NCBI GenBank assembly: GCA_037043015.1
Contig: CM073322.1
Coordinates: 22,844,364-22,908,363, forward strand
DNA: 64,000 bases
Origin: Bryum argenteum
Taxonomy: Eukaryota > Streptophyta > Bryopsida > Bryales > Bryaceae
Direction of reading: 5' to 3'
The notes under the pieces are model-generated. The model was not told the DNA's origin and made no database searches. It saw nothing but the letters and a program-made list of their open reading frames with translations. This document shows, piece after piece, positions 1 to 26,724 of the stretch. The translations under genes were made by a program, and so were the position numbers. The first letter of the stretch is position 1. The number at the start of each line of letters is the position of its first letter.

Positions 1-2868
1 CCTATCTTAACAGGCCATATTGAAGGAATAGGGGGTCTATCCTCGCTTTGAGAGAATGGCTCAATCCACTTGCGACGATGACCCTTCACACACCTGTCAA
101 TATCATCCGCACAAAAAAAGAACTGATCAATTTTTCTTGGCCCCTCTTGAGGGCGTTGCCATACTCCGGTGTAAGTTGGAGCTGCGGTCGCCTTCCCCTT
201 CTGAATAATTCGTGAGTCACATCTTTTTTTACTCTTTCGCATGATACCCCAACAAGCCTTGGCAGAATTCTCCCTCAAACGGGCAATGTGCCACAACCTT
301 TCGTCAACTTTAGTCTCCTGAACAGCGGTCACACGTTCAATACTAGGTCCAGCAAAAGTGGATGGAAATGTCGGTGGCTCCTCAACTTCATCCTCTTCAT
401 GGATAGTACTCAGATTTTCAGCCAAGGCTCGGGTAACCCTTCTCCCAATTCGGGGACGTGAGTAGCTCACGGTGTCGTCCGTGCGTTTCATCATCAGCTC
501 CAATCGGAACATCAGCCTTACGTTTCTTGGATCCGAACACCTCGGCCCCCTCAAGGTGGGCGTCTCGGGTACAAATCTTCTCAGCTCCTGGATAGTCAGA
601 CACTGCCTTTGTGAGGCTTGATGGATCGCCAGTTCGTGAAGCTTTATGGGCAAGACGCAAATGTGATTCTTGATGTTGGTCCACTACCACCCTTGCCACC
701 TCCGTTGAAGTCGTGGTAACCGACAACTTGGAGGAAAGCATGAACATAATCATCAACAGCTGCAACGTACAAGTCCCCACCCTTGTTGCCGGACGCTTGC
801 AACCATTTGTTATGGATAGATTCCGCAAGGTTACATGAAGGCATCTCCGCCAGCTCTTCTGCCGAATATTTATTTTCCTGTAATGTGCAAAGACATTTAA
901 CTTAGTAACAAAAAAACTTGGTCAAGATATCCAGAGTTGTTAGACTTTCATCACCAAAAGGCTGATCTAAAAATAGATTTTTTAAAAGTTTAAATATTTT
1001 AAAATGTTGTTACAGTAATCGTAAAAATAAATACTCTATGATAAAAAAGTAAATAAAATTTGCGGATTTCCATGACATAAACGCACGTGAACATAATTGT
1101 ATAGTGGATGCGGACTCACTAGTTCCATGAAGCCACCCCATTGTCTGTATCGGAAGTGCCAGAATGCCAGCCAGTGTTCAAGGTGACCTAATCCAACTTC
1201 CGAGGTGGCCTGCGCCGACGCCCACCACGCTCGGATCGCCCAGTATCTTGTCTCCGCCTCAGCCATGGTGCGTGCATCCTTGTATTGCTTACAAAGATGT
1301 CGATGTTGATCTTGCAGCTCGTGCACGATGTATTGTTTGGTGTGTTTCTCTAGGGATTACGTCCAATGGAAGTAGCAAGTTCGTTCGCGGCCTTCCATAG
1401 GGACTTTAGGGTCACCGGAGCCGTAAATGATCCGCACAAATGCGTTCGCTTGGCTTGCGACCGTCGGCCATGAACCCTTGAAATCTGCGGGCGCTTCCAC
1501 CCCCGTTCTCCCCCATGACGTGGTTTAGGTTCTTCCGAAGAAGACGATTTGAGCTTCTCCGTCTTCGACCGAAAATCACAAAGATGCAATAGTTAGAATG
1601 CGGCGATTTTTGAGTCATAAACGTGGCACGCCATGGTGGTCCGGTTCTTGACACGCTGACGTGGTCGAACATTAACCACGCGTGGGGCAGTCGCCTCGGA
1701 TCGCATATTTACGAAACAAGGTCAACACCGCCGGGGCCGACCTCGGACATCTTGAAAATGAAAACTTTGTCACCTTCATCTCCTTGGCCCGGAACTGGTT
1801 ACGTTGGATGTAAGCCCGATTCTTTGAGGCCTCGAGTTTGGTGATCCCATCGAGACACCGTATCTCAAGCAAGTGCTTAAAAGTGGTAATACGATTCCTG
1901 ACGCTGGGAGAGTTCAACTCTTTACATTGATCGAAGATAGGTTCTAGCTCCTGGAGGGTGAGCTTGGAGGTTACAGGGTCACCTTCTTCACGGAGAAGTA
2001 AGTTTCCGAGTAAGTCCTTGCTAGCCTCCATGACTATTTTGGACGTTGTAGCTTGTGGGTTACGTTCTACGTGCTCCTCTATTAACTCATCAATTATTTT
2101 ACGTGCACATCTGTAATCTCCGACTTTGACAGATGTTCGTGGGTACCGATATGCACACACGCCCGCTCTTGACTCTCATCTCCAAATATGTAGAATATTT
2201 TAGAAGGGCATACAGCAACACAAACGGGAGGTTCTTTGCAGATCTTACAGACTAGTGTTGAGGAAGGAGGAGGCGCGTGGCCGATCGGGAAGGGGTCCTT
2301 AGTAAAGCCCTCGAACTCCACCTCATTCACCTCCGCTCTCTGCGGTCGGCCGTAGTAAGTAGCCGCAATTCCCATTGTGGCATTGAAGATGACCAACACA
2401 ATTAGAGTAGCGGAAAGACAAACCGAGGTTGTTACTAATGTTAGTAGTCATTGTCCTGGTCCACACATGACCGTCGTATCTTTTGTCCATCCCTTCCATA
2501 GATTTGGCTACCTTGACAAAGATGGTTGGTACAACGGGAGGGAGAACATAGAGGACATCACCGTTGAAAGTGGGAGGCAGGAAAGAGACGTTGTGAGTAC
2601 GAATGGAATGGAAATCTATTTTTTTGAGGATAGTTTTGTTGCGAGACATACTACCAAGTCTACGAAGAGAGGAAAGAATGTTTTTGGTTTTTACGACTTT
2701 GGACGGGAAGAGAGAACGGGGGTGGTTCTGCGATCGCGTTGAACTGCACGAGGGGGTGGATGCGGTTCGATGATAGTCGACGGATCGCATGGACGCTTTT
2801 CTTTCATCGTCGGATGAATCGAAATATCGATTCGGACTTGAGTCCGGGTTCGACCTTGACACGAGCAA
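1..2868 (-). pseudogene. decayed DDE transposase-like gene, copy A (MULE-type suspected), runs off left edge
   Basis: Read on the minus strand, conserved blocks follow in order. A Cys/His cluster with GHLQCHNGNC lies near 2400, then CKICKEPPVCVAVC near 2240. ERACVHIGTHEH is followed, after a frameshift, by VKVGDYR near 2130. DELIEEHVERNPQA, CHVYDS (putative first catalytic Asp, near 1620), GFMADG (second Asp, near 1470) and FWHFRYRQWGGFMEL (near 1140) come next. A consensus gtgagt donor follows, then after an acceptor at about 887 SCNLAESIHNKWLQ. An open C-terminal frame continues past base 1. The blocks occupy different frames, with breaks near 2345, 2128, 1700, 1540 and 480, so the copy is dead. 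Copy B at 20.76-21.86 kb shares the same blocks. Assignment to MULE rests on the Asp-containing blocks and general resemblance, not on a search. It is divergent from the small ORF at 3781. Confidence 0.72.
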
Positions 2869-3780
2869 GAATCGAACAATCGGGAGATGGTAGAAGAACT
2901 ACGAGGAGTGAGGAGGACGGTGGAGGCGTTCATGACAGATTACATCATCGTGCCGAATCGATCGATCTTGTCCGGTCGTAGCTTATATATTCTACAATTC
3001 TTGTCTAGGTCGACCGGTTCGACAAGCACAGTAGTCTTGGACAAGATTAGTGTTTGGATCCATGACATGTTTCTCTAACCAAAGAGATGACTCATCAAAA
3101 CCGAAACGAATTGCTAGCCAAGACGGAGTGACTTGACCACTCCGTCCACCCCCGGAGGAATGCGGATGGGAGGACTTAAGTCTTCGGACCTAATGGCAAT
3201 GACGTCCGCGGGGAGGTAAGGGAGTAGAGGATGCCATGATAGACGTAGGGGAAGAAGACAACATCAACAAGTGTGCGGAGAAAGAGAGTCTCAGTGCGTT
3301 TCGGATGTTCAAATATGAGACGTTGGTGTATTTGTGTTTGCGTGCGTATTGAATACATATCAAACGTTATTTCTTATAATAAAAAGTCCAGATATCGGAT
3401 ACTCTTAATCGTGAGCATGATGATTTTAAAGCACTTTACTTAAAATACTTAAATAATATGAATCGAAAAACGCATTAAGTACAAACGATTAAAAATATTG
3501 GATTCCACGATTAAAAAGTATGGGTAGACGGTAAAGTGGCGGCGGCGATCATTGTCGAGGTTTAGTTGGATAATAGATGCGGTCGGGTTAGCTTATTTTG
3601 AATTGTCGACACCATGATGGCGGGAATTAGGGAATACGCGTTGGGCGATTAGGGTATCGTAGCCGCATGGAGCAACTTATATAATGGAGTTGAGAATTAG
3701 GGTTCGACAACTTCATATGCATAGAGAAGTTTTGGACTCGGTATGTGAGACGAGTGATAAGTTATCTCATTGCAGGCAGC
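2869..3780. other. spacer between divergent ORFs of copy A
   Basis: No convincing gene. It separates the 5' end of the transposase-like pseudogene from the start of the accessory ORF and is the natural place for a shared bidirectional promoter. It becomes AT-rich after 3360. An acceptor-like TTGCAG lies just before the ATG at 3781, so a 5' untranslated exon may sit here. Confidence 0.4.
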
Positions 3781-4515
3781 ATGGATGAAATCGCTAGCGG
3801 TAGTGATAGAAGAAAGGAAATAGGTCAGAGAAAGAAGAAGCGGAGGGGTGGTACGAAGTTCACTAACTCTAAAGCACAGAGGCGTAGTGCTATGCGGAAG
3901 CGTGATGAAAGAAGCTCAAGCGGCGATGATCGGGAGCCAGACGGGTACGATTTACTGATCGACGATGATGTGCTACCGCCATTCAGGCGGACTATCAAGA
4001 TGCGCTCGCTCAACCTCGACAGTGTTCCAGAGAGTGTGGGGACGGACGAAGGTGAAGAAGAGGAGGACGATGGGCGTAGCAGGCAGTTCAAGACGTCTAC
4101 TGATACTCTTTGCGTGGATGGGCATGACGATGGAGGTGTGGAATCTACGCATGAGGTACTAAAGTTTTCTATGATACAATTATGTAAATATTTGTAAAGG
4201 TCAACATATTCCTAAATACATATATGGATTAATTACAAAATGGGTTGTCTTCAGGATCGTGTAGGATTGGAAGAGGTAGACGATGGATCAGGAGATGAAG
4301 TAGCATCTTTTGAAGAGAAGAGAGTCACTCAAATCGGTGAGGGAGCTGAAGCCACTTGTCAGCAGGGGACACAGTATGAGGTAGCGGATGGTTTTGAGAC
4401 AAGCGTCGAAGAAGTAGAGGAGGTACATGATAAACCTTACTTCTTGGTTTACTGGGAGGACGTAGGGCTGGTTAAGTATACAGTCAACGAGAGTTCTTTC
4501 TTCAGTATGACGTAG
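3781..4515 (+). CDS. small basic/acidic accessory ORF of transposon copy A
   Basis: Two exons, 3781-4155 (ends CATGAG|gtacta) and 4255-4515 (after TCTTCAG), join in phase to 211 residues. The N-terminal part is strongly basic (QRKKKRRGG then KAQRRSAMRKRD), which looks like a nuclear localisation signal. It is followed by SLNLDSVPESV and a run of Glu/Asp; the second exon is also acidic and ends near KPYFLVYWEDVG. The paralogue at 20099-20557 shares MxxI, the KKKR-GG-KF block, a second basic block and the NLxSV block, and also lies divergent to a transposase copy. This makes it a component of the same element, in the way mudrB accompanies mudrA in MuDR, although those two are convergent. Function unknown; DNA binding or help to the transposase is inference. 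The frame appears unbroken. Confidence 0.6.
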
Positions 4516-4848
4516 TTCCGAATTTTGACATGATATAGATACTTGATATATAAGGACATAGGACTGAGTAATATATGTCGTAGACTGCAAATAATACGTA
4601 ACAAGCGTAATTCAAATTCACATAACTTGCGTATTCAAATGTATGAGAGATGGATGCAAATATTAGGACTTTCTGGAAAAATATTAACGAGTGTCATGAT
4701 CTCTTGGTGTCATACATTTTATTCATATTTATATTAAGTGTACAACCTAAGTGCGGTAATAAAAAATACAGTACATTGTGTTTATGAATTCATTGGAGAC
4801 ATAGTGTTGTACTAGAAAATTTAACAGTAGGTATTGTCCCAAGGTTAT

Positions 4849-5202
4849 CCGCCCCATGTCCGTCCCCATCGTATCCGCCCGATGTCCGTCTTGATGGTAT
4901 ACGCCCGATGTCCGTCTTGGTGGTATCCGCCCATTGACCATCCCCATGATATCCGCACGATGATCGTCCCCATGTTATCTGCCTGATGTCTGCCCTATGG
5001 TATCCGCCCGACGTCCGTCCACATGGTATCCGCCACATGTCCTTCCGAATATATACGCCGATGCGGGTCCCCATCGTATTCGAACGATGTCCGTCCCCAT
5101 GGTAACCGCCCGATGTCGGATCTTCCATGGTATCCGCCCGATGTCCGCTATTCGATGGTACCCGCCCGATGTCCAGTAGGCCATGGTACCCGCCCGAACA
5201 TC
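4849..5202. repeat. 26-bp minisatellite, about 14 degenerate copies
   Basis: Successive units resemble CCGCCCGATGTCCGTC followed by CCCATGGTAT. Spacing is mostly 25-28 bp and substitutions accumulate toward both ends. The unit length is not a multiple of three, so the open frames across it are not protein evidence. Confidence 0.9.
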
Positions 5203-5654
5203 ATGCTTCCCGCCGAGCAGGCCACGCCAGGCTCCGATGATTCCTGCGAGGTCCCTGTTCGCAGTCCGCAGACTTCTCCGCGGCAAAAAGCTTTGGCGTA
5301 GCTATGGCGTCCTCGTGTCCCCATACATCGCCGCCATTGCTAGAACCTTGCATTAAATTGTTCCAGCCGATTCGGTTGGGTAGGCGAAGATAACAGCTCG
5401 GCAGGATTATATTTCTAGAAAGTGTCAGGTAGTTGAGAAAAAGCCTTGGAGGAGAAATTGTCCCACTCATAATAGAATCCACTTTTGTCGAGAGAGGTAG
5501 CTATATTTAACAATAGCAATTGAGTGGACGTCATCAATCACGATAAGAACAATAAACGTTCGTGGCCTCTCTTTCCTTCCTCGGGTGAGGGTGTTTCATC
5601 AATTTCCATTAGGGTTGGAGGAAGGAGGTGCGATGAGCGTAGTGCGAGAGAGGA

Positions 5655-5867
5655 ATGGCGCGAATGCGTGAACAAGATGAAGTAACGAATCGGCTAGAAG
5701 AAGAGCACGTCGAGTTGGATCTGGAAAATGTGAGTACGCAATCGTCGTGAGTCCACTTGTTCGCGGAGTTTTACACGGAGTATTACGGATCACATAGTTG
5801 TCCATCAAAACGAGATGCAATCAAAACGCTGGCCGAATTGGAAGCTTTCTACTTCAACCGCTTGAAG
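5655..5867 (+). pseudogene. exon-like coding segment upstream of ParB-methyltransferase-like copy C
   Basis: The frame starts MARMREQDEVTNRLEEEH, meets one in-frame TGA near 5748, then continues VHLFAEFYTEYYG and ends LAELEAFYFNRLK exactly at a strong donor (AAG|gtgagt at 5868). The only sizeable plus-strand coding signal downstream is copy C at 8387, so this may be its first exon, with the 422-bp array lying in the intron. Splice phase with the 8387 acceptor is not clean, so the link is inference. A similar LAELE block occurs at the end of an exon-like ORF (19268-19513, minus) upstream of copy D. Confidence 0.35.
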
Positions 5868-5939
5868 GTGAGTATGGAAATCTAGAATCCTTGAAATTGG
5901 GTCATTGCCGCTTGACTTCGAGCTTAGAAGTCTTTCTTT

Positions 5940-8095
5940 GGTGCATTGGACCTTTTTGCATGAATCGGTTTGCTCCAGGATGATGATCGAGCCGGGTAGC
6001 GAGCTTAGATGGTCGGATGTGAAATGAGTGGGAGGGGTGCATGAATTGAATGTTATGTGAGAGTGCCCTCGATGTTTTTCGGGCGAAGTCAAGCTCTGTT
6101 CTTGCCAATGGTTGATTGAATTTGAGCCCTCGAGGCGCTTGTTGGCACGATGGCACGCCCGGAGAGCACGTCTCGGTGAGCTGGCTTGACTTGAGCCTCT
6201 CGGGATGCGGCATGTGGAACCAAGGCCGAGCCCTTGAATCCTCTCGATTATGCTTGCTCGGACTTGAGCCTTGGGGAAGCGATGTTGGCACGAAGGGGCC
6301 TGCGTGAGCTTGCTTGGTCCCAGTGATGGCTTTTGCGGGAAGTGGAGCCGCCAATCCGCGACCTTTCGTCCACGCAAGGTCCGGGGAGGCTAGCTCGTTT
6401 GTGATTTTCGTTATTGTTTTTGGCACTTTTGTGAAGTTTGTGCAAAGACCTTTGACGGGGGGTTGGTCGTTTTGGTCAAGAGCCCCGTGTTGTTCTTCTC
6501 GGGCAAAGTCAAGCCCTGTTGTTGAGATTGGTTGATGGAATTCGAGCCCCGGGGCAAGAAAATTGCTGGCACGATGGCACGCCCAGACCACGTCGCAAAG
6601 AGAGCTGGCTTGACTTGAGCCCCGGGATGCAAATGATGTGGAACCGAGGCGAGCCCTTGAATCCTCTCGCTTATGCTTGCTCGGACTTGAGCCCCCGGGG
6701 AAGCGGATGTTGGCACGAAGGGGCCTGCTCGTGAGCTTGCTTGGTCCTCGGTGATGGCTTTTGCGGGAAGTGGAGCGCGCCGCCCGCCCTTTCGTCCACG
6801 CAAGGCCGGGGAGGCTAGCTCGTTTGTGATTTTCGTTATTGTTTTTGGCACTTTTGTGAAGTTTGTGCAAAGACCTTTGACGGGGGGTTGGTCGTTTTGG
6901 TCAAGAGCCCCCGTGTTGTTCTTCTCGGGCAAAGTCAAGCCCCGTTGTTGAGATTGGTTGATGGAATTCGAGCCCCTGGCAAAGAAATGCTGGCACGATG
7001 GCACGCCCGATGACCACGTCGCAAAGAGAGCCTGGCTTGACTTGAGCCCCCCGGATGCGGCATGTGGAACCGAGGCAGAGCCCTTGAATCCTCTCGATTA
7101 TGCTTGCTCGGACTTGAGCCCCGGGAAGCGATGTTGGCACGAAGGGGCCTGGCGTGAGCTTGCTTGGTCCTCGTGATGGCTTTTGCGGGAAGTGGAGCGC
7201 CGCCGCCGACCTTTCGTCCACGCAAGGTCGGGAGGCTAGCTCGTTTGTGATTTTCGATCCTGTTTTTGGCACTTTTGTGAAGTTTGTGCAAAGACCTTTG
7301 ACGGGGGTTGGTCGTTTTGGTCAAGAGCCCCGTGTTGTTCTTCTCGGGCAAAGTCAAGCCCCTTTGTTGAGATTGGTTGATGGAATTCGAGCCCCCGGGG
7401 CAAGAAATTGGCACGATGGCACGCCCAGACCACGTCGCAAAGAGAGCCGGCTTGACTTGAGCCCCCGGATGCGGCATGTGGAACCGAGGCGAGCCCTTGA
7501 ATCCTCTCGATTATGCTTGCTCGGACTTGAGCCCCGGGGAAGCAGATGTTGGCACGAAGGGGCCTGCTTTGTGAGCTTGCTTGGTCCTCGTGATGGCTTT
7601 TGCGGGAAGTGGAGCGCCGCCGCCACCTTTCGTCCACGCAAGGTCGGGGAGGCTAGCTCGTTTGTGATTTTCGTTATTGTTTTTGGCACTTTTGTGAAGT
7701 TTGTGCAAAGACCTTTGACGGGGGGGTTGGTCGTTTTGGGTGAAGAGCCCCGTGTTGTTCTTCTCGGGCAAAGTCAAGCCCCGTTGTTGAGATTGGTTGA
7801 TGGAATTCGAGCCCCCGGGCAAAGAATTTGGCACGATGGCACGCCCAGTACCACGTCTCAAAGAGAGCCGGCTTGACTTGAGCCTCTCGGGATGCGAAGA
7901 TGTGGAACCAAGGCGAGCCCTTGAATCCTCTCGATTATGCTTGCTCGGACTTGAGCCCCTGGGAAGCGTTGGTTGGCACGAAGGGCCCCGTGAGCTTGCT
8001 TGGTCCTCAGTGATGGCTTTTGCGGGGAAGTGGAGCCACGCCCGCCCCTCTCGTCCACGCAAGGTCGGGAGGCTACCTCGTTTGTGATTTTCAAT
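5940..8095. repeat. tandem array, about five units of ~422 bp
   Basis: The anchor CCCTTGAATCCTCTCG starts at 6231, 6654, 7081, 7494 and 7918, giving periods of 423, 427, 413 and 424 bp. Other anchors, such as GGCACTTTTGTGAAG and TTGGCACGATGGCACGCCC, recur in step. Most unit-to-unit differences are length changes in C or G runs (for example GAGCCCCGGGGCAAG against GAGCCCCTGGCAAAG). Long open frames on both strands shift between units, so the array is almost certainly non-coding. It is GC-rich compared with its flanks and stops about 290 bp before copy C. Confidence 0.93.
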
Positions 8096-8386
8096 CTTTC
8101 AACATTTTCTTTTACTTGATTGAAAGTTAGTGAATTTCGGCTAAGTTGAGGCCTCGATCTTGGTTTTCTTTGTGGAAGTAGTGCTTTGTTTTTGGTTTTG
8201 GAGTTGAAGTGGAGTGTTGTTCTTGGTTTGCTTGGGTCAAGTGTAGCCATCATTTAATTTTTCTAGTTTGAAATTTCATACTCATTGTTCCATTACATAT
8301 GACTATTTGGTATATGAAAGTTAATGTTCAATATTGGTGTTCGCCATCGGGAAATTACTTACCTTTGATTTTTTGAGGTTTTGCAG

Positions 8387-11300
8387 ATCCGTTGAAGCGG
8401 CAGAAAGTTCATCGTGAGGAGGATTCGATCTTTGAGAGCGATTTGTCAACTTTGAGAGATCATGTCATGTCATGGTCGTAGTAGAGTCTCGTCGTTTAGT
8501 GATACCTTTGTCTTCTCATTCCAAAACTTCTTCCGGCCTCCCCGTCCGTCTCACTTCACGTGTTGACGTTGATCGGGTTGCACGAGCGGTTAACATGCAA
8601 ATTAACCAAAATGAGGCCAAAGCTAGACGTACTCACGCAAATGCATTAGCAAGAGTTATCCCAAGACGCTCTCCCCGTCTTGCCGCAAAATTGCGCTCAA
8701 CTCAATTGTATTGTCTGATGATTTGATGACTTTATCATGAACTTAATTATAAAGTCGTTGTGTTTCTTATATCTTATCGCTTTGTTAACTTCACACATTC
8801 TTATTTTTTTTCGTGTTGTGTTGTACTTGGTTTCTATAATGCCAGATGAACATAGCTCAAGTCCATACCGATGAAGATGACAATACCACCCCGCCTCTTC
8901 TTCCTTCTGCACGACCTCTCTCGTGCGTTAGAGATGAACACGATCGTGAATCTCTCCCAAATGATGGTAACCTTTGCAGTGGAGTCCCGGAAGATTGTCC
9001 TTCCGAAATTCACCGTCATCCTCAAGCGTTGCAAGAACATGATGGACTGGACACTATTTCCGAAGATGAAGACACTCCGTTGCCTGGGAGTGTCAATGTT
9101 GGAATCGTCCATATGCCAACTCATCTTCAAGACAAAGATCCCGATTGGAGTGCAAATGAAATGAGAATGATTCACAAAAGTGACTCCATTGCGATCATTA
9201 ACAGGTTTCGATTCAAACCTGTTAAAAAGTCTCGCATGCTATCCTAAGGTTCGTCCTATTTCGGAACAAGACGTGAGGAAGTTGGAGAATGAGTTCAACA
9301 AAGGCTATCGGGAGGGCGATCGGGTGATGTACGTTTCTCCCTTCGATAGGAAAGGGAGAGAGAAGCTGGTTGCTGACGAAGATGCAGTGTGGACAAATCC
9401 TCCGTGGAAAGTCGCAAAATGAAGAGTTCGAGACGATCTTTGAGTCCGATCCCGATCTTCAACACCAGAGTGGCAAGTATTATTATGTGTACGAAGGTAA
9501 CCACCGGGTTACCGCTGATGCGCGTCATATTGAAAGGTACCACAAGATGGATCCTTCTTGGTACATATCAGTTGACTGCATCGTTCTCGATGCTCGTGGA
9601 GAAAGCAATCTCCTCCTAGACGCCATGAACGACATAAATTGGTAAGTACTTGTCACATTCATTCTAATTATGTTCTTGTATATTCAACTATGATATATCT
9701 GATATCTGATATCGATGTGTAGGTCTACGGAACATGACCATGTTGAAGACGGTCTGTGTGCAAAATTACAACGCATGAGAAAATTTGGAAAACTGAAACT
9801 TGAGGACTTCAAGGACCTTATCTCCCCGGAGGATTACAGAATTTGCAAGAACGCCAAAGCTAAAAAAGAAACTTGGTATCCGGTTACACTTGACGTTTTC
9901 GTCAAATTCTTGTATGCGGTAGGTTTATGTTTATGTGCTATATCGTTATAATTTGCTTTCGATTTTTTGCACCTTTTAACTACGTTATAAATTATTTACA
10001 GAGGAGGTTAGCGAAAGCATCCGACGAGGCTGAAGCATCTTACTACGCCACTGTTCCGAAGGATAAACAAACAGGGCCGGGAGTTTGGAGTGCCATGGAC
10101 AACGCCATCAAATCAGAAATTAAGTCCATTCGTGGCAAAAATTTCGACAAAATGGTCGCTGTCGCCAACAACAAACTTGGGAAAGTATTCCCAAAAGAGG
10201 TATTTTTCGCATTCTACTCAAATTCAATATAAGCCTAATCGTCTTTTTGACCTTTATCACATTCAAACTTTGTCAATCTCCTTCATGCGCAGATATACTC
10301 TCATTACAGCAATAACCACAAACCGGATATGACAATTGATCGCTTGCAAATGGTAGCCACCACGAACGTGCACTTCGATTACAAGGAAAGTGGCCGCAAT
10401 GGTGGAACTCATCCTCCGAAGCTCGTCGATCCGTTCACTTTCCGGAGGACCGCCAATGAAAGATAAATCATTGCTTGCTTTCCTCCATCGCGCATCACTT
10501 TGGGCACAGTAACTTAAATGTATTTTCCGTGTTTTCTATTTTATCGGCTTTACAATATTTTAATTTCTAACGAAAATTCTTCTTTTCCAAATAGAGCAAT
10601 CCCTTTCAACCGAATTGCGTAAACTAGCGAAAGATGACAATCTCAACATTCAATGGAATGATTCCGTCTTAAAACCATCCGAGTACGTTGAGAAGTGGAG
10701 GTTGCTTTTATGGGAGAAGGCATTTGGGAACTACCTTTCTCTTAATGCTAGCCCAAGGTTCATTAAAGGCTCCGATCTTCAAAGGATTGGTGGTGGCAAA
10801 GTTACAATAAAACGTCTTTTATTCCGGTATGTATATCTATTATGTTTTCAATGTAACATAATTTTTGTTTATCATTCAATTTCGTCATTCTAATTTCTTC
10901 CCTTGAATGTAGGTACTTGAAACAAGAGCTTCTTGCGAAAGGAGCACTAGCTTCTTGGTCCATTCCCGTCGAGTTCGATGACGTCTCAGTCGCCAACGAT
11001 CCCTCCACCTTCTTCTCCAGTGACCAACAGAGGCGGTTTACCACAACACACCATCGATCGTGGTTGGTTCCTTGAGTGCCGCGATAACTTCGTTCATAAG
11101 GAGGAGAAGCATCTTATTCGAAACCTCGGTACAAGCGCTGCTGCACCGCACCTATGGAGATAGACAACGATGACGACGACGAGGACCTCTCCATTTTGCC
11201 ACCCACTGCCCTTCTTCTCTTCACCTCCTTCGCTCAACCGCTCAAACGTCGGGCCAACAAAAACGACGCAACGCCGTAGCGAAGCTTCCTGTAGTAGATC

Positions 11301-13087
11301 TTCAAGAAGAATCCGAAGAAATTCCTCCCCGCAATGTACATCCAAGGTCCGTAAGAAGTTGATTTTGACTCGGGCATCGATGGTGCGACCAACAATGCAC
11401 GTAGACGCGGTCGACAATTGACTCGGCTTTTCTGCAGCGCTCTTACAAATACAGGTCTCCTCCTCAATCATCACACACCGATCACAACTCCGGAAAGAAG
11501 TTCGCTTCACTCCCATTTCTTGAACCGAAGCATGTTCTTTGAGTGTTTGTCGTCTGAGATTACAATTTCTCTTCCAATGTACTTGGAAAAAGGGGACATC
11601 GGAGCTTCGCTCAAAAGGCGACTCATGAAACCAAGGATTGGGACACACAAGTCATGGACATCATCAACCACATCGAAAGGTATTGTGTCTTAATTCTTTT
11701 CTTACATTTTTTATTTCTTAAATTTTGATGGGAACAGATCGCTTACAACATGTGTCATTTTCTCGTGATTTCCAAAGATTGAAAAGACAGAAGTACCCAT
11801 GCAAGGAGATGGGTACGAAACATCCCGGCATTGATCTCCTCTACGCAGACGTTCCCGAGAACTTACCCGTACCTGACGTGTCGCCCGCCGAAATCCCGTC
11901 ATGGAACAAGCGTGAGAAAAGCTACTTCGAGAGTGTGTTCTTTTTTGCTTTCTACAACTTGACAGACGAGGGTGCGATACTTGTTATGCATCCCAAGGAC
12001 CGTCGAGTCGAGAAAGCTCTGGATGCCGAGTCGAAGGCTTTCGATTTCCGAATGGTGCGAGATTGGTGGGGATATAATCCCATGCCAATGGCCTCAACAA
12101 ACCCACACGTGAAAACGGTATGGTCTTTATTATTCTGCATTAAAATCATCGTCTATGATTATTTACAACGTTTCTTTAAATCTCTCTCATCTATTGAATT
12201 TTGCAGACACACAACTTCCACATTAAAGTTTTTGTTCGGAAGTCATTTGCCACGAGATTCTCCATAAGACAAGTTGCGAAAGAGTACGCAGGTGTGCCTA
12301 TTCTTCCCGACGAGGAAGACCATGTTTTCAATTTTGCGAGCAATGACTCCATTCGTAAGAAGGAAGATGGTACTCCGTGGCGTGGCTCGCGATGAGAGAA
12401 GGATCCCTCCTTCATCCAAAGTGTTTTATAGATTCTCTCACATTTGAGCGGGGAATCGTCTTTGACTGAGCCCTAGTAATCTTGGTTAGTTGTTGCTAAT
12501 ACCAACTCTCATTCAATTTATTCATCTTCGTAGTTCGATGTTGGTTCTTTGGTATGTAGGTGCTTCCGTGATTGCTCACGCGATCAAACCGTCATCTCAT
12601 TCTTTGTTGAAGGCGATGAAGAGATATTTGACGGACTTTTATCGGCATACGTCGATGGTACCGCTTTTGAGGAAGAAAGCGGTGATTCCGGTCCAAGATA
12701 TGACTACGATGAAGGACACATCTCAACCGCTTTTGAAGAAGCAACGCCCAACATTTTGTGCGTATTTATCTCTTACTTTCCTCCCCTTCTATTGTCACCT
12801 TCAATTGGTTGAAATTTATTGGTATTGACTTTTCTCGTACTTTTAGGATCGCAGTTCGAACCGACGTTTGATTGGCAACGGAAGTCTCTACATGTGATCC
12901 TCCGCAAACTTTCACCCTTCCATCTTATGCGGAGCGGATAGCTCAAGAATTTGTGGTCGCCTTCTTCTCCGTCTTATCGGACAAGAGTAGACGCCAACGC
13001 TTTAGCTCAAGAGTGCTTGCGTTTATAGACGATGAGGCTGATCAGTGTGACCAACACTTTAGTGGTCGTTCACCATCAGCTTCCTAG
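8387..13087 (+). pseudogene. ParB-like plus permuted DNA-methyltransferase-like multi-exon gene, copy C
   Basis: An acceptor at 8386 opens a head exon that ends in IPRRSPRLAA. From 8846 a long acidic exon leads into YPKVRPISEQDVRKLENEF, then VYEGNHRVTA (GNHR at 9496-9507), SVDCIVLD and STEHDHVED. This order resembles the ParB/sulfiredoxin fold. Exons then follow to 10466 and 10600-11163. A Rossmann-like block IDLLYADVPE (11830-11859), FFFAFYNLTDEG, AILVMHPKD occupies the place of methyltransferase motif IV, where DPPY or DPPW is expected. Near 12556-12640 GASVIAHAI and, in another frame, FFVEGDEEIF resemble motif I and its follower. Motif IV before motif I is the order of permuted beta-type DNA methyltransferases. 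Frameshifts near 9240 and 9418, others near 12600, and the altered catalytic motif mark it as inactive. Domain names are inference from motifs. Confidence 0.6.
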
Positions 13088-13920
13088 GTGATTTTATTTT
13101 CTTAGTTTTGGTTTGGACCATGTAGGGTCATATATTTATAGTTGACCTACGGCATTGGTCATACGTGTGGTTTTGCTATACCTTTTTATATATATATATA
13201 TATGACGTTTACCTATTACTTATCAACGTTTTACAGTTTCTTAATTCATGTAAATGTTAAACTTTTAAACTCGATGCCAACTAAAAGTTTCTAAACATTT
13301 CTTTATTTCCAGTTTGAATTTTTTGAAACTTGCCAATGATGGTAGGGGTTCTAGTCTAGTATTTGTATAGCTCAGGATAGCTGCAGCACGACGCAATGCA
13401 ACGCTCAAACGAGGCCGAGGAGAATCGAACTCGGACCACTACAATGCCACGTGAAATCATGAATGTCTTTCTGTTCACCTTTCAAGGAGACATGGAAGGA
13501 CGACCCGTAGTTATAATTTTCAGATTATATAAACTGAATCATCTGCATATAATTCTAACATGTGAAAGAGGAAATTGATGACGTCAGCCCTAATTAGTCT
13601 CTAAATCCTAAAACAATAAATAAAACTTATTGATTACCGAAATGGCTATCTCAACTTTTGGTTTATATTTTGTATTTGATTTAAATTGAATTGGTTACAC
13701 ATGATGATGCGAGCCCATAATTTAATTGACTTTCATTTAAATTTGCAAATGTGGATTAATTATGTAATATTGTAGGACCCCATTACCATATATCGAAATG
13801 GATACAGTACCCTATGTCCACGGTTTTGGGTACTTTTATGCCTAAAAATAACCATTTCAAAATTTTAAAACCACCTATTCCATGGTAATAGGGCCATTAA
13901 CTTTTAAAATTTTTATTTCT
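13088..13920. other. AT-rich spacer between convergent copies C and D
   Basis: No gene. It contains a short TA run near 13187-13202. Near 13425 the minus strand reads GAGTTCGATTCTC, a tRNA T-arm or SINE B-box look-alike without a properly spaced A box. Confidence 0.4.
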
Positions 13921-13976
13921 TACCGCTCGAACTTTACCGCTCACCGCTCACCGCTCACCGCTCAACGCTCACACCC
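13921..13976. repeat. 7-bp microsatellite (CACCGCT)n at truncation point of copy D
   Basis: Four to six near-perfect copies of CACCGCT occur with single-base variants. The homology of copy D to copy C ends directly at this run, right after the GNHR motif, so the repeat marks the breakpoint of the truncation. Confidence 0.85.
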
Positions 13977-15286
13977 GTGGTTTCCCCCCAAACGATGATT
14001 CCCTTCATAGACAAAAAACATTTTGCCTTGAAATTGATGGAGGTGGACGTCACGAAACAGGTCGTCCTCGAATCGTCTATTTTCATTCACCCAATGTTCA
14101 TCCCAAGTGCTGACAATCTCCGGGGAAACAAGAAGATCCCGACTATCCTCGTCATATAACGAGACGTACGTGACGCGATCACCCTCCCTATAACCTCAGG
14201 CAAACTCGTTTTGAAGCCTCTGCACGTCGGCTTCAAGAACAGGTCTAACCTTCGGGTAAGATTGAAGGCGACATAAAGGAATTCGAAACCGGGACTTATC
14301 TTCTGGTTTGTTGAGAATCCCTTTGATGGCCTTAACGGAGTCCGTCGTGGTGCAAACTCGAATCTCGTGCTCCCTAAACTTCATATCCTTATCCTTGAGA
14401 TGTGAAGGATGTTTAGCGGTCTCATCATCATCGGAATCCTCGGAAAGAGATGACGGGCCCTCCATTTGTTGCTCTCTCCGGTGAAGCAAGCCCAAGGGCG
14501 TGCGTTGCGTGCACAATAGCAAGATGCTCACTAGGAAGCACTGCTTGGGCCCCTTCATCCGGAGCAAGCGCTGGCCCGTCCCCATTCTCAATGTCACTTA
14601 CGTGATGGCGCGGGGGGATGTCTTGTCCAGTGGATGGTGTCGGGACGTTCGGCAAACTGCGATCCTCTTCCATGGGTTGGGTCTCCGGAATACTCAAGGG
14701 AGTATGCTCGCCATTCTCATTATCGTCATCGCCATCTCTTGGCTGGATAAATGAAAGGGTAAAACACTAAATTAAACATATGCAAACAACAAAATAATGT
14801 CAATAGATATATATCAGTAAAATATGATGATTAGTAAACTATCATCCATGGATAATACAAAATATAAATCATTGTATTGTCAAAGACAATACAATGTGGA
14901 GAGTCAAATCATGAATCAAGTTAAGTAAAAGTTGCTAGCCTAGGAGACCGTCTAGGGGCTAAACGGGCCGCATCTCGAGCTTCTAGTCTCTTCTCACGTG
15001 TATAACGTCGCCATTCTCTCATATATAGAGCATGAGCCTCCTTGTCAACAATATTGGATGATACAACATTGGAACCGGGAAAAGAATCCCCATTAGAGGG
15101 CTCAGCCATGGGGACGATCATGGCAGGTAAACCTAAGACAACGGTACGGTCTCCAATCCAATTTTGAACACCGTGACTCATTCCATCAAAATCACTACTA
15201 TCAGTGTCAGACTCAATGACATGCTCCATGCTATCCGCAGAGAACTCCTGCACACAAAAAAAATATAGCGGTTTAGTCACAATCAT
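13977..15286 (-). pseudogene. truncated ParB-methyltransferase-like gene, copy D
   Basis: A minus-strand exon begins after an acceptor near 15250 (TGTGCAG|GAGTTC), reads SMEHVIESDTDSSDFDGM and ends LAPRRSPRLATFT. A second exon from about 14742 reads PRDGDDDNENGEHTPLSIP, then after a frameshift near 14465 SLSEDSDDDETAKHP, HLKDKD and SYPKVRPVLEADVQRLQNEF. There a stop codon interrupts the frame, which resumes GYREGDRVTYVS and ends at FFVYEGNHR (GNHR at 13992-14003). Block order and many residues match copy C, including RRSPRLA, YPKVRP, NEF/GYREGDRV and YEGNHR. The rest of the ParB-like domain and the whole methyltransferase-like part are missing. Copy D converges with copy C and is bounded by the CACCGCT run. 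The agreement between two decayed copies is what makes the family real. Confidence 0.66.
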
Positions 15287-15969
15287 GAGTGCACATTGGC
15301 AAAAAATAATAAGGCACAGAACAAATTAAACATGTTTAGACTGAAACGAAAAGAGATGGTTGAATTTCGAGCTCAAGAATGAAGAGTAACATATCTACTA
15401 AACTTTTCTCTTAGGACTCAAAGATTGAAACACTACCGGAACCTTTACAGACAAGGGAACATTCAAAACCACTATAGAAACATTGTAAGTGTAGTTGAGC
15501 TCAAGAAAAACCTGATTTTACCCACTTGTCCAAACATGCCAGCTACCCAAACAAACAAGCATCAAATATCATAATGGAGCTTCAATTAAGAGTTTGAGGT
15601 TCCTTCTTTGACAATTTGAAATGCACATTATTTGAACCATAAACCGTTTAGCAAACCCCCTTCCATACAAGCCTATGATATTTAATTTCAATTATTTCAA
15701 TCGATTTTCCACATTTACAAATTCTTAATCTAACTAGTTTAGCCCCTAAAATTTTCTTGATGCAAAACAATCTAACACACAATATTTGACCTTCTTCTAC
15801 TTTAGGCTTAAAAAATCCCAATCTAAGAATTATTTAGAAGATTTAACCGTAGGATCTCAAATTGAACTAGACATTCTACTCACATCTCAAATATGAACCG
15901 TTGATTTTTCTTCAGTTGTGAGATTATAATGATCAAAGTTGGCGGAAATTTTCTCATGTATACACCTAC
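15287..15969. other. AT-rich stretch upstream of copy D
   Basis: No coding signal recognised. It probably belongs to an intron or promoter of copy D, since a pyrimidine-rich tract and acceptor for the 15250 exon lie at its lower end on the minus strand. Confidence 0.35.
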
Positions 15970-20557: not shown

Positions 20558-20757
20558 GTAGTCTCTAGAACTCAGAACACCACACCGGAAAACAAGAGTA
20601 TAGCTCTAGATGTGCACTACTTCAGCTCTCAAGGACAAATGATTTTGAATCCATGCTCCACTCTAACTATATACCTTACCCTAGGAACTCAGATTCAATT
20701 TCAAAATATAATAAAATAGATATGAAGCCCGCGCATACTATTGTCTTTTACTATTAT

Positions 20758-21861
20758 ATTTTTGGTGATGAAAACCAAGAGCGTGCGTGCGTTCATATCG
20801 GCAATCACGACCACCCTGTCAAGGTTGGGGACTACAGAGGTACACGGAGCAAGATTGACGAGTTGATTGAAGAACATGTCGAACGCAATCCACAGGCTCC
20901 TGTTTCTAAGATTGTTATGGAGGCCAACAGAGACCTTCTAGGAAACTACCTTTTACGTCAAGAGGACGAGCCTCATACCCACCTATCTTTGAAACAACTA
21001 GAGCATGTGTTCGATAGTTGTAAAGACCTAAACTCTCCAAGTATTAGAAACCGTGTCTACACGTTCAGGTATCTAATGCGCTATGGAGTCATGGACGGTA
21101 TTACCAAACTCAGAGGGCTCAGTAATTGGGCCTTTGTTCAGAGTAACATGTTTCCAGGGCAAGGAGACGACTTGGACAAAGTCTTCATTTTCAAGATGTC
21201 AGAAGTTGGCCCTGCTAGTGGAGTGGACCTGGTCCGGCGGATGCAACCTGGTGGTGATCTAGAGCATGCTTGGATGATGTTTGATCACGTCAAACGTGTT
21301 ATCCACTGGACGACCATGGCGTGCCACGTGTACCACTCCAGTTACCAACGAGTACTTACAATTGCTTGTTGTGATTTTATGTCCGAGGATAGAGAAGCTC
21401 AGATTGTTTTTTGGAAGAATCTGAACCATGTGATGTCAAGAAATGGGGTCCCTAAGCCTCAGTTTTAAGGTTTCATGGCTGATAGTGCACAAGCCAATTG
21501 GAATGCGGTCCGGATCATATACGGTTCTGGCAACCCTACCGTGCCCATGGAAGGACAAGAGGATACGTGCTTCTTCCATTGGTCTCAGTCGCTTGAGAAA
21601 CACACCAAGCAGTACATTTGCCATGAACTACAAGACCAACACAAGTATTTGTGTTTTCAATATAAAAATGCCTCGTCCATGGAAGAGGCTGAGACACGCT
21701 ATTCGGGAATCAAAGCATGGTGGACGTCTTCACGCGCTGCTTCCGAGGATGGAGTGAGACATTTGGGGTTTTGGCTCGCATTCTGGCATTTTCGATATCG
21801 CCAATGGGGGGGGTTTATGGAGCTAGATTGGGTACTAACGTATATTGGGAGAAATCAGTAA
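20758..21861 (+). pseudogene. DDE transposase-like gene, copy B, nearly open frame
   Basis: One frame reads FGDENQERACVHIGNHDHPV, KVGDYRG, DELIEEHVERNPQA, KIVMEANRDLLG, FVFKM-like IFKMSEVGP, DLVRRMQPGGDLEHAW, MMFDHVKRV, CHVYHSSYQRV, IACCDFMSED, VFWKNLNHVM, a TAA codon at 21466-21468, then in the same frame GFMADSAQANWNAVRI and FWHFRYRQWGGFMEL. Compared with copy A, the N-terminal Cys-rich part is deleted, the putative first catalytic Asp in CHVYDS is His, and the donor after GFMEL (gtgagt in A) is changed to GATTGG. It is one stop codon away from an open frame but lacks both ends. It also lacks the SCNLAESIHNKW exon of copy A. The length of the intact protein is not known from this window. 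Confidence 0.7.
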
Positions 21862-21870
21862 TCATCAAAT

Positions 21871-22299
21871 ATGGCGGCACGTAGGAATTATTGTATTCCT
21901 CACTCAGCAAAGACTGCGAGACGGACAGTCCCCCATTTAGGAACGGAACACCAAATCCATGGTGGCAGCAAGACAGTTACTGTGGAGCAGACACTCAAGC
22001 GAGCGAGTGGAGATGTGGACTTTGTACCAGAGCATGGATTTGAAGGCGATGACCTTATTCCAAAAATCCCTAATGTCATAGTCGCTGAGGAAGTGTGGCC
22101 CAAGATCCGCGGAGGTAATTATGCGAGTCAGGTACAGAACATGTTGAAGATGAGATTAGTGTCTAAGTTTTGGTGCGCCTTCATTGATAATACGGAGCTC
22201 ATGGACCGCCATCAAATGTCTAAGTATAACGCGGTTGGTCCATGGAGATATAAATATGCTTCAGGCAGGTTTCAGATTTTTGCACGATTGTTGGAGTAG
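21871..22299 (+). CDS. hypothetical protein, weak F-box-like C-terminal part
   Basis: An open frame of 142 residues starts MAARRNYCIPHSAKTARR just after copy B breaks off. Residues about 75-115 read VIVAEEVWPKIR, then MLKMRLVSKFWCAFID. The pattern Leu-Arg-Leu-Val-Ser-Lys-x-Trp is typical of the second half of F-box motifs. The N-terminal half is unrecognised. It could be a captured host fragment or a further exon of the element. Codon use looks coding, but no second copy is present for comparison. Confidence 0.35.
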   Translation: MAARRNYCIPHSAKTARRTVPHLGTEHQIHGGSKTVTVEQTLKRASGDVDFVPEHGFEGDDLIPKIPNVIVAEEVWPKIRGGNYASQVQNMLKMRLVSKFWCAFIDNTELMDRHQMSKYNAVGPWRYKYASGRFQIFARLLE

Positions 22300-23389
22300 T
22301 ATAGATTGCTGTCTTGCAACCTACAAATGTTTTAGTCTACTCAATGCCATTCGTGTAGTATGTTGGAGGCTTTTGCAACTAGCTACAGGCCTTGTTCAGA
22401 CAAGGCTCGTTCTAAGGAACGGCCGAAAAAATGAGTCCGGATTCATACAGGGTTCATCCCAGGAAGAATTTCGGTTTCATACCAGAACTGCTGGTATCGG
22501 CCATAGTTTTCAGCATGCCATTTCTTTGTAATACTATCTGATATTGATATGCAGTTTGTTACAATGTATATAGATTCTGGGGATTTCTAAGAGTGAGCGA
22601 GGTTCACACAACATCTTTTTCCACATATGTGATTTCGCAGGTTTTTCGGAGATAACCTTATCGTACTGGTATTTACTATGTAGAGTAATTTATACGGCTT
22701 GCAATGGTACGAACACCATATCAGATAATCGAACATTCTAGGCAAAATATGGCATCCGGTTAAAAATAAATTTTCCGGTGTTGTCAAGTAAATCTATACT
22801 CACTATACGTATGAATGAAGATGACGGAATGTACTAGACTTGGGTAGGGAATTAACTCACCGTTATCAATTTTTACGGAACTGATTGGCAAACGTCATTC
22901 ATATCATGGATCCCTTATTCCAGTTTGTAACATTTACCGGGGAAACTTACCTAGCAGATTTTATCCATTAACATATAAATCCACAACTAAGAATACTAAA
23001 ACCCTGAAATTTCGCATACTTTCTAAACGTGTTTCCTAATAATATCCCCACATATGTATCTAAATCGAAGAAAACAAATTCCCTACCCAATTATATAATT
23101 TACCTCTACCGGCTACTACCCCATCATCCAGTAATACTACTAACTTACTTTGGCAACTACATATAACGTGAGATTACATTTTATTCGGATTGTTGTCAGA
23201 AGTCCGGCTGATAAGTAATACGAAATGAGTAAACCGGATGAGTAGGAATTTACATTGCTCTGAGAACTCTATAATTGCACCAGCTCACTCTGCACCCCTT
23301 TCCCCCACTGAACACGTGTAATTACAGTTCTGTTAAAGGATGATCACATACAGTTGAAAAGCAGCGCAGTAAGGGAAAACCGTCGGAGG
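22300..23389. other. intergenic, no gene recognised
   Basis: AT-rich with no long frames and no recognisable repeats apart from the element end that begins near 23390. Confidence 0.35.
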
Positions 23390-23561
23390 GAACGTCGCGT
23401 TCCCAGGAAACTGAGCTGTTCTCCACGAACGTAGTGGTAACGTAGCGCCGGACTGCTGGTTTTCGACATTTCCGTAAACGTAGCCCGGATCATCCGTAAC
23501 GTAGCGAAATTTAGAAACGTAGCTGAAAAAACGTAGCTACTGAGGCAGCATTCTTGTAGTG
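23390..23561. mobile_element. right end of a CACTA-type element
   Basis: It ends CATTCTTGTAGTG (23549-23561), the reverse complement of CACTACAAGAATG. Inside the end, six copies of ACGTAG lie within about 110 bp. Such subterminal motif arrays are typical of CACTA (En/Spm) elements. No matching left end was found to its left, so this end may be solitary. Confidence 0.55.
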
Positions 23562-23854
23562 TAGCATTCTACAGCGATAATTCACAAAAGGATAGGTGGC
23601 AAATTTAAACTTTAAATTATGACAATCAGTAGCTAGCATGTTTTGAATTTGTGCATCGACTTTGAGTCTGCACTGGGCCAGGGACAAACTCACGCATTGA
23701 GCGTGCAAGAAGGTTCACGGCTACAATTCTTTTCTTCCATTGGAAATAGGTAGATGATCGCCTTAAGTTTGACTTTCTGAAAAAGTGTCACGGGCAGACT
23801 GAGTGTTCGCAATGATATTTTGCTGCATAAAAACTAAAAGGGCTGAAAGGGGAA

Positions 23855-24001
23855 ACCCGAAAGAAACCTGTCAGAGGAATACTTCGTCAAAGGTGATGAT
23901 GCAAAACGTAATCTAGACGCAGACCCGAAAGAAACCTGTCACATCGGAATACTTCGTCAAAGTGAAGAATGTGATGATGCAAAACGTAATCTAGACGCAG
24001 A
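23855..24001. repeat. tandem duplication, two units of 68 and about 79 bp
   Basis: Both units start ACCCGAAAGAAACCTGTCA and end AACGTAATCTAGACGCAG. The second carries small insertions around CATCGG and GTGAAGAAT. Confidence 0.9.
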
Positions 24002-25680
24002 ATCCAGGAAGTCGTATGATGATGTGCAACTTTAAAAGAAATGCTTGCACGTGTTGGCATTCACACCTGGACCAGGCACCTCGTGTGACCCTGAGAGCTC
24101 CAGATGCTCCGCTCCAGTCACAACCCAAAACTCGTTGTCCCGTACTACATCACGGCCTACAAAGTCATAGTTTCTCTTTCAGAGCGTTGTAACAAAAGAG
24201 CAGCTTCCTCAGAGACAGACGACCGTGTTTGCTTGCATTGATTTGCTCGATTCTAGACCAGCTTTTCCACATTTCCATCAGCTTGCTTTTGGAAATGAAA
24301 CTTTTCAACTTTCTCAGCGTGCTGGCCCACTCTAGAAATCATGTTGCTACGCTATGCTAGTTCAGGAGACGGTAAACCTGAAAACACATGGCGAGCCCTA
24401 GTCTGAGGCTCACAAAGGACCTGAACCTCTCATACATGGTAAAAAACTCTCTTTTGCATGTGAATATTGCATAGAAGTCTTAACTTGCGAGGCATTCTCG
24501 ATGTAAGAAAGTCCGACATCTGTCCTTAATGGCTGGCAGCCCTTCCTTAAATTGAGGAACCATGAAAAATTTGCTGATATAGAATACAGTGCAAATAATT
24601 CTAGATTCACATTTCCACTGCGCTGACAAACTATCGCTTCTGAACTCTATAATACGCAGACCAGTTTTGAATGGCAAGAACTCCAAGCTACGCTAACATA
24701 CCAGATTCAGAATATTCAGCCTCAAGAGACACTCAAGAGCTTGAGACTTCAGAATCTTTTGGAGGCAGGCAAGGTCGCCATTTTTCGAAGGTAGTCATTT
24801 CTCCGAACGACCATTTACCTGGATAATGTTTTTCATGTGGAATTGATTGGTCTTTTGCTTACATGTTTACTTTTAGTACGAAGGAAAAGAAAAAAATTCA
24901 TATTAGAGCCAGCCACAATTGTTAAGAATCCCTTAAACCATATCCTCACGGATGTGAAAATTCAGAGAGCTCAAGAGGTGCTACAAATTCGTCCTAAAGA
25001 ACCTGATATTTTCAGCTCAGAACTTGGTCATTCACTCTAGAATGGTTAAGATTCTGGAAAATTCCATGCTATGAAGGTGGAACAGTTGAAGTTGGGGAAG
25101 AATCCCCGCAAGCCCCTCTAACGTATACCTTTCTGCGTTAATTAAAATTATTTGCCATTTCAAGACAATCAGACAGTACAATGTTCCAACTCTCTCAAGA
25201 TAGTTGAAAAGCCCGGTGTATTCATCAATAGAAGTGAGAAGCTGTTAAAAAAATAGTCGAAAAATATGTCAGAAGAATCGAGCAGATTACTGAAACAGGT
25301 AACCAGGAGTTGACAGTTTGTGTTTATTTCTTACCGCAATTGCAGATCATCTCAACACCAAGGGCAATTCGCTCTATACATCAATAACCTAGTCAACCAG
25401 AAATTTCACATAGTTAACACTACAGCATTTCGCTAGCCTACTCTTAAGCAGACTGTAGACATCCGAACTTTAGCACTTGTGGCAAGAATAAGATATGTTC
25501 ATCGAAAAAGGAGAGGACATGCAAAGCCAAACATAGAACACCTCTGTCACTTGCATTTATGATCACTCAGATAGGTTGGGGATTTCATTGCACATGCATC
25601 AAACAGAGACCAATTTCTGAGTGCAGCAGGACTAAGGTAAGGAATGCTCACAATGCACAAAAATTGGTTGACGTAATTCG
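24002..25680. other. intergenic, downstream of PMEI-domain gene
   Basis: Searched by eye on the minus strand for the pectinesterase catalytic domain that normally follows a pro-region. No long frame and no recognisable pectinesterase block is present. Confidence 0.4.
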
Positions 25681-26724
25681 CTACTGTGACGCAGCTTTCA
25701 GAGCAAGAAGCCCTCGTCGTCCAACGGCCATGTCTAGTTCTGAGCCTGTGGATTTTGTGAGCAAGTGCCGACGATGATGGTCAGGCTCTGGTGTAGTAAG
25801 ATGATTGACGAATGTGAGAGCAATGCTCAACATTGTGTCAACACTCTTAGCCTGTGCTCCAGTAATCTGATCGCTGCCGGGAAATGGACCTACTTCATCT
25901 ATTCCTTCTTGGCAAGTGTCTTGGTTAGTCATGGCAGCGCTCATGAAAGTTTTCACATCTGCTCCAGAAGTGCCCGGGTTGTGGTCGTCCATGCCAGCAA
26001 CGAGCGACAAAGAAGTTTTCACATCATCGAGAGCATCAGCAAATACCTCAACACATTGTTCAAGTGCAGCGTTTCCTTGCGATCTCTTCTTCATGGCCTG
26101 GGCACGCATGTAGGACACGTTTAACACATGTTCTGCCGCTTCCATAGCCGTCTCAGTCAACTGCTGAAGGTTCAGAGCCTTGTTAGAGTTTGGATAGCTC
26201 CGGAACATGTTGAGGCATACGGCACGTTCTCTAAGAAGAACAACAACGACAGCATATCAACACAAACAGGCAAGATTGAAAAAATTCGCCGATTTAAACC
26301 CTAGGAAACAAAGATTCCAAGAAAGTGTGCGTGCACGACAGCAGCTTGCACTGTAAAGGTGAAACAAAAAAGCGCGGTGAGAAAAATTTCAAATCACATA
26401 CACTGTCTTGTCGCAGATAGTTTCATAAGGAGCTTGATCGGAAGCTGCTAGTGTAGCGCGGTCAATAGCAGAGACTGGAGATGGATGAGGAGCCGGTCTG
26501 CCATGGCCAGTGACCTCGGGAGCTGGTGCGAAGCTCTGTAGCTCCTCGTTGTTGTTCGAGACCTCAATGTCGTAAACACTGACAATGGCCGCGATGGCGA
26601 TGAGGACGACGCAAGCGCTCACGGCGTAACATTGCCTCCTGGACACATGCAAGATTGCTGCCGAAATTCCTCGCGCCGAATCCTGTAATAGCCCTGCCTC
26701 GCTCGAGTCCTCTACTCTCAACAT
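25681..26724 (-). CDS. membrane-anchored PMEI-domain protein (pectin methylesterase pro-region without catalytic domain)
   Basis: Exon 1 is 26724-26402 (donor GT|gtatgtg) and exon 2 is 26230-25681 (acceptor TTCTTAG). They join through a shared Val codon to give 290 residues. The start MLRVEDSSEAG was chosen because a membrane segment (CYAVSACVVLIAIAAIVSVY) follows at a normal distance. An upstream in-frame ATG at 26829 is possible. The PMEI domain begins ICDKTVERAVCLNMF, with further Cys in ALEQCVEVF and DTCQEGIDEV, giving the usual conserved cysteines. The C-terminus has HHRRHLLTK and GRRGLLALK, which resemble the RRLL processing sites between pro-region and catalytic domain of type I pectin methylesterases, but the frame stops there. 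It would act in the Golgi or cell wall as an inhibitor or orphan pro-region. It may instead be a truncated methylesterase gene. Confidence 0.72.

Follow-up and report, generated by a model that had tools for sequence, protein, structure and literature searches.

A gene on the plus strand at positions 8387-13087 of a 64,000-nucleotide stretch of Bryum argenteum DNA (contig CM073322.1; hereafter the window) was found to lie in a DNA transposon, element C, beside a divergently oriented transposase gene. The element has defined inverted ends flanked by target site duplications (TSDs), the gene occurs in high copy number, and its protein is under purifying selection. Judged from its sequence, the C-terminal half of this protein is a permuted domain derived from the beta-class amino-methyltransferases. 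The reading that we favor, at somewhat better than even confidence, is that this is the accessory gene of a two-gene transposon resembling the Mutator-like elements (MULEs), encoding a pseudo-methyltransferase that would act in trans on repeats of the element, in anti-silencing or in complex assembly. The genome searched comprised 258.8 Mb in 25 contigs, and all copies read come from this one genome. The original prediction had proposed a multi-copy plant gene family resembling ParB fused to a permuted DNA methyltransferase, possibly a DNA-modifying component of a mobile element.

The accessory gene and its methyltransferase-like domain

The gene consists of about ten exons separated by GT-AG introns, the borders being read by eye from GT-AG ends and from frames that are open in other copies. 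Exon A (8387-8706, approximate borders) has splice-like ends and is open in other copies. Exon B (8847-9642) has a broken frame and carries the YPKVRPI and YEGNHR strings of the ParB/sulfiredoxin-like part, assigned from open reading frames (ORFs) and from a phrog_1033 match in other copies. The middle part of the protein is encoded by exons C (9724-9918), D (10002-10199), E (10293 to about 10500), F (10594-10827) and G (10914 to about 11682), the last with an acidic and basic low-complexity stretch. Exon H (11779-12117), located from hhalign alignments and other copies, holds DLLYADVPE at the position of motif IV together with the strands that follow it, while exons I and J, with an intron between them (12207-12760), hold the position of motif I, which is garbled here and reads VFDWSPSTGASVIACARSNRHLIAVEADEEIF in better copies. 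The last exon (12850-13087, approximate start) encodes the C-terminal tail and is open in loci L011, L022 and L030.

The window copy is itself broken: its frame shifts close to positions 9240 and 9419 and again in several of the later exons. Profile searches with six of its exon peptides gave one chance-level match only. The peptide strings on which the original prediction was based were nevertheless all found in place: YPKVRPISEQDVRKLENEF from 9240, YEGNHR and SVDCIVLD in 9418-9642, DLLYADVPE in exon H, GASVIAHAI from 12559 and VEGDEEIF near 12610. The predicted position of motif I also stands, but the string GASVIAHAI...VEGDEEIF is garbled; better copies read GIVFDWSPSTG followed by ASVIACARSNRHLIAVEADEEIF there.

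The assignment of the C-terminal half is supported by the following data. When exons H, I and J were spliced from six copies and aligned by hhalign to a reference of Escherichia coli YhdJ and 49 IMG/VR relatives, 219 columns were matched at a probability of 97% (E 1.1e-10, score 75.3), and 28 copies extracted by script gave 219 columns, 97%, E 8.7e-11 and a score of 76.1. The maxima of the column-shuffled nulls were 24.8 (100 shuffles) and 19.6 (60 shuffles), and PrmA, a non-permuted methyltransferase used as a single sequence, scored 15.9. The alignment pairs DLIYADVP with DLIFADPPY, and GIVFDWSPSTGASVIACARSNRHLIAVEADEEIF with the motif I strand. The Pfam profile PF01555 (N6_N4_Mtase) exceeded its cut-off of 26.7 bits in a partial D-type copy (30.3 bits, E 5.2e-7, a value that depends on a splice junction inferred from locus L071), and phrog_3008 (DNA methyltransferase) matched a further copy at 4.2e-5. 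The predicted methyltransferase ancestry and the permuted order, with motif IV preceding motif I, are both borne out by these data. Sequence searches of the PDB with two domain alignments returned only unrelated proteins (E 0.2 or worse). Scans of IMG/VR and of the GTDB species genomes, with two peptide patterns per scan so that distant relatives would be missed, gave no relative, and thus no viral or prokaryotic donor was found.

The tetrapeptide that defines catalysis in this class was not observed. A motif of the form [DNS]PP[YFW], covering the catalytic DPPY, DPPW and DPPF, was present in none of the 44 readable copies, although the original prediction had named copies keeping DPPW or DPPY as its own test. 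Exon H was read in 41 copies, one of which (L071) lacks the stretch; the other 40 have DVPE (28), DAPE (8), DIPE (3) or DVLQ (1), and four further subfamily copies have NAPE, DAPE, DAPK and DVPE. The fourth position, expected to be aromatic, is thus Glu in 42/44, Lys in 1/44 and Gln in 1/44. For comparison, the pattern [DNSG]P[PI][YFW] fits 41 of 49 reference proteins of the beta class. In the D-type copy L222 the motif was absent from the region expected to hold it. Because the defining catalytic motif failed, the gene was not filed as a DNA methyltransferase, and with the tetrapeptide altered in 44/44 copies the activity supposed in the reading as a DNA-modifying enzyme appears doubtful. Another natural variation at this motif, TDPVWP, was seen in two phage-type beta-class methyltransferase-like sequences from IMG/VR (L131 and L133).

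The likeness of the N-terminal half to ParB and sulfiredoxin fared less well. Among 31 loci, 6 of which do not cover the site and from which 8 loci fetched with a GNHR-containing pattern had been left out, YEGNHR was found in 24 of the 25 covering loci and YEGNHH in the other, so that the G-x-x-R signature is kept. The ParB-like profile phrog_1033 matched over this stretch in other copies (E 0.014 and 0.0018) and did not match the D-subfamily copy. The ParB profiles of Pfam and NCBIfam had no match to the accessory proteins searched, and hhalign against two ParB sets, while placing GNHR on DGFHR, gave scores of 14.7 and 13.7, below the null maxima of 25.7 and 25.0. YbdM-type ParB proteins, used as a reference, gave no support for this half. 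The conserved motif and the phrog_1033 matches are therefore suggestive only, and a ParB-like N-terminal half is unproven.

Selection, copy number and pairing with the transposase

Nei-Gojobori dN/dS between copies was 0.149 for exon B (14 copies), 0.034 for C (18), 0.062 for D (18), 0.083 for E (19), 0.157 for F (32), 0.106 for H (37) and 0.063 for I (30), with a mean dS between copies of 0.51-0.95. The comparison was restricted to non-identical copies that had no stops or gaps and shared their alignment ends, in pairs with dS >0.02; the copies are drawn from the best matches of each search, which favors conserved ones, and the exons covered are B-F, H and I. From these ratios, the accessory protein was evidently needed while copies spread. 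The combination of an altered motif IV with strong purifying selection speaks for selection on some role distinct from ordinary amino-methyl transfer, with room left for unusual catalysis.

Two exons of the gene gave 946 and 936 first-look candidates genome-wide, and of the best 150 of each that were scored, 150/150 were significant. The predicted multi-copy family is thereby confirmed. Since many copies are significant and are under strong purifying selection, a chance reading of the frames was ruled out. The transposase and accessory-exon places were listed as the best 150 of 936-960 candidates each. For 52 of the 150 transposase places, an accessory exon from the lists was present within 20 kb, and 47 of these 52 pairs are divergent, as in the window; random placing gave a mean of 8.15 neighbors of any orientation (maximum 16 in 200 trials). 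Because only these best matches were listed, the true overlap is probably larger. Of the 100 places listed for the terminal inverted repeats (TIRs), 38 are situated 1.8-2.2 kb past a methyltransferase exon in the right orientation (measured against exon places on contigs C1-C3 plus 13 further places), and among the 100 there are 19 convergent neighboring pairs spanning 10.8-31 kb.

Structure of the mobile element

Element C occupies window positions 1-13987 and continues upstream, with a total length of 15.0 kb. Its left end, at G000:C2:22843340, precedes the first base of the window by about 1,024 bases. The inverted ends, read from the upstream sequence (L071) and the window, have the common core GTGTGAGCGTTGAGCGGTGAGCGG, and the right TIR (13936-13987, minus strand), recognized by TIR comparison, is built of GAGCGGT iterons. 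Both ends adjoin the 10-bp repeat CCAAACGATG, which on the right lies at 13988-13997, within the GNHR-LAAW codons of a second copy of the gene, copy D. On the minus strand at 13998-15325 is the 5' part of copy D, whose 3' part is contained in the upstream sequence L071. As the TSD is inside these codons, it was deduced that copy C jumped into copy D; the copy D of the original prediction is thus a real relative, reading on the minus strand from 13998, in which copy C is nested. The inverted repeats of element D itself were sought by comparing the initial 3,300 bases of L071 with window positions 22001-27500 and were not found.

Seven elements were examined at their termini, the TSDs being read directly and without a shuffled control. 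A perfect 10-bp TSD was present in 6/6 elements having both TIRs; in the seventh (C7) a TIR was looked for on the gene side and not found. At either end the TSD is found 17 bases out from the TIR core, except in one element (17 and 16). The terminal sequence is GGACGTTGCTACC at the transposase end and approximates GGGGAAACCACC at the opposite end, and the TIR core was found at 831 genome places (≤3 mismatches) versus 0 for a reversed control. A second element aligns to window positions 1273-4704, 5384-5887 and 8365-11135. Locus L011 (G000:C3:20427129) is an internally deleted element in which the sequence following exon A is fused to the terminal part of exon G, ahead of exon H. The TIRs, the 10-bp TSDs and the divergent transposase gene uphold the suggested place of the gene in a mobile element. 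An LTR or DIRS element was ruled out, since neither fits a TIR with a 10-bp TSD, and a viral insertion is disfavored by the TIR, the TSD, the transposase and the lack of a relative in IMG/VR, although no systematic search for viral genes was made.

The transposase gene of element C (1-2898, minus strand) is decayed and extends upstream of the window; it was assigned from ORFs and from better copies (L082 and L083), and many copies elsewhere are open over about 740-800 codons. Inspection by eye of the better copies indicated a zinc-finger-like part, a D...D...CxxH...E core (DDE-like) and a C-terminal CxC...CxH (SWIM-like) motif. At the expected C-terminal place of one copy the SWIM profile PF04434 matched below its cut-off (E 0.27). 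The MULE transposase profile PF10551 matched 52 genome places, none of which coincided with the best 150 transposase places when the lists were compared by reading, and a PDB sequence search with one transposase gave no match. A transposase of another element copy (B) was identified by ORF match at 20569-22296 (plus strand) and, from its position and orientation, is inferred to be the partner of gene D.

Repeat analysis showed a non-coding tandem array (6079-8092) of about 4.8 units of about 420 bp in the interval that separates the transposase gene of element C from its divergent accessory gene. The window's array is common to several other loci. In an element at C3:19.4 Mb the corresponding position is taken by an array of different periodicity (170 and 339 bp, with copies also recurring at about 510 bp). 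Comparison of the two arrays gave no match longer than 36 nt (best E 0.005), against an identity of 85-87% for the flanking genes.

Other features of the window include part of an aminotransferase class I/II gene at 53417-53965 on the plus strand (PF00155, E 2.9e-20), probably an ordinary host gene, and two tandem 77-bp units, 91% alike, at 35077-35230. Inverted repeats pair 37981-38149 with 60818-60986 and 37980-38080 with 63712-63812; these are 101-169 nt long, 72-73% complementary and 23-26 kb apart, and are possibly of one repeat family.

Relation to known systems and proposed function

The element resembles MULE/MuDR transposons, as described in the available text of PMC6446971, in its TIRs, its 10-bp TSD (8-11 bp in MULEs), the weak SWIM-like motif after the transposase core and the possession of an additional ORF. 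It differs in that its transposase is unrecognized by the Pfam MULE profiles and in that the additional ORF is divergent and ParB-like/permuted-methyltransferase-like; the extra motifs and ORFs given for MULEs include PMD, SET, FAR1 and unknown ones, and the main text of that paper contains "methyltransferase" 0 times and "moss" 0 times. Since the TIRs and the TSD length fit MULEs and the transposase lacks a MULE profile match, the element was called MULE-like in its mode of action and is probably a MULE. The C-terminal domain is likewise comparable to beta-class DNA amino-methyltransferases (YhdJ, PF01555) in having motif IV and then motif I over 219 aligned columns, a motif I strand and an acidic loop, but unlike them it has no P-P-aromatic in motif IV, is joined to a ParB-like N-terminal part and a long middle part, and is encoded by an intron-containing transposon gene.

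Mobile elements with enzyme-derived modifier domains are known from several sources. DIRS1-like retrotransposons carry a methyltransferase domain. TET/JBP genes are carried by DNA transposons of fungi, and SET genes by Phytophthora HarbingerS and MuDR families, according to the part of PMC12730594 available. All of these involve another enzyme family or transposon type, whereas here the catalytic motif is altered. No description of a transposon-borne ParB/methyltransferase gene was found in the literature searched on this subject and on moss MULEs, which covered titles and the starts of abstracts, with most subscription papers and all preprints outside its scope.

The proposed role is based mainly on an analogy. 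The VANC proteins of the Arabidopsis VANDAL MULEs are anti-silencing factors whose binding targets are non-coding tandem repeats that diverge rapidly (PMC10398659, in the text available). In the portions available of PMC10398659 and PMC5735166, the VANDAL elements, like element C, are MULE-like, have an extra gene and contain a non-coding array that differs between relatives with similar genes. The likeness is one of layout. It is this resemblance of the array to VANC target repeats, together with the iteron-built TIRs, that led to the proposal. The altered catalytic motif makes it probable that the accessory protein is a DNA-binding or anti-silencing helper rather than a working enzyme. It would thus be a DNA-binding pseudo-methyltransferase acting in trans on the element's own repeats, either the intergenic array, the GAGCGGT iterons of the TIRs or both, where it may counter host silencing or help to build the transposition complex, by analogy with VANC and mudrB.

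Several data weigh against this reading. Motif IV mostly retains its first Asp (Asn in one copy) and its third-position Pro, and motif I its Asp and Gly, and catalysis could therefore persist. YhdJ alone, without its relatives, scored only 25.3, so the depth of the hhalign reference matters. PF01555 remained below its cut-off in three other proteins (0.00092, 0.015 and 0.054), in the copy matched by phrog_3008 (0.0084), and in the D-type piece when a wrong junction letter was used (5.9e-5). No Pfam MULE match was obtained for four ORFs of two transposase copies, and hhalign of the transposase against three MULE copies of the same genome stayed within the null, with profiles almost without depth. 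The divergence of the arrays is known from a comparison of two elements only.

An active N6-adenine or N4-cytosine methyltransferase whose motif IV is unusual, targeted to repeats by the ParB-like part and marking the DNA of the element, is considered rather unlikely. Such self-marking would act against silencing or at strand transfer. The fold and motif order are those of beta-class enzymes, the dN/dS values are low in exon I, with the start of motif I, and in exon H, with motif IV (0.063 and 0.106), and motif IV has D in the first position in 43/44 copies and P in 43/44. These data are countered by the fourth residue, which is E, K or Q throughout, by a second residue of V, A or I, and by the P-P-aromatic-type pattern kept in 41/49 references. 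A fuller version, in which a ParB-methyltransferase fusion of prokaryotic ancestry is unconventionally catalytic and marks its own repeats, making a self-marking transposon in a plant-type genome, is held to be quite unlikely.

The protein could also be a structural part of the transposition machine, a DNA-binding cofactor of the transposase without any effect on silencing. A role in integration has been suggested for mudrB. The gene is kept in the subfamilies sampled, and the TIR iterons could serve as binding sites. Nothing specific speaks against this explanation, which sequence alone cannot separate from anti-silencing, and it is judged unlikely. It is very unlikely that the gene is a host gene family or a set of captured host fragments carried passively in the manner of Pack-MULEs. 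Its multi-exon structure and the tendency of MULEs to acquire host gene fragments (PMC6446971, available text) would agree with such an origin, but many elements, from several subfamilies, have the gene similarly placed together with TIRs and a transposase, and the dN/dS ratios between copies fall far short of 1.

The gene represents a new type of DNA-transposon accessory gene, encoding a permuted amino-methyltransferase-like protein that is kept under strong selection in an element family numbering hundreds of copies. If its role is VANC-like, transposons would have acquired anti-silencing more than once, starting from different proteins. If instead the protein proves to be an enzyme that modifies DNA, a transposon would be supplying DNA marks other than 5mC.

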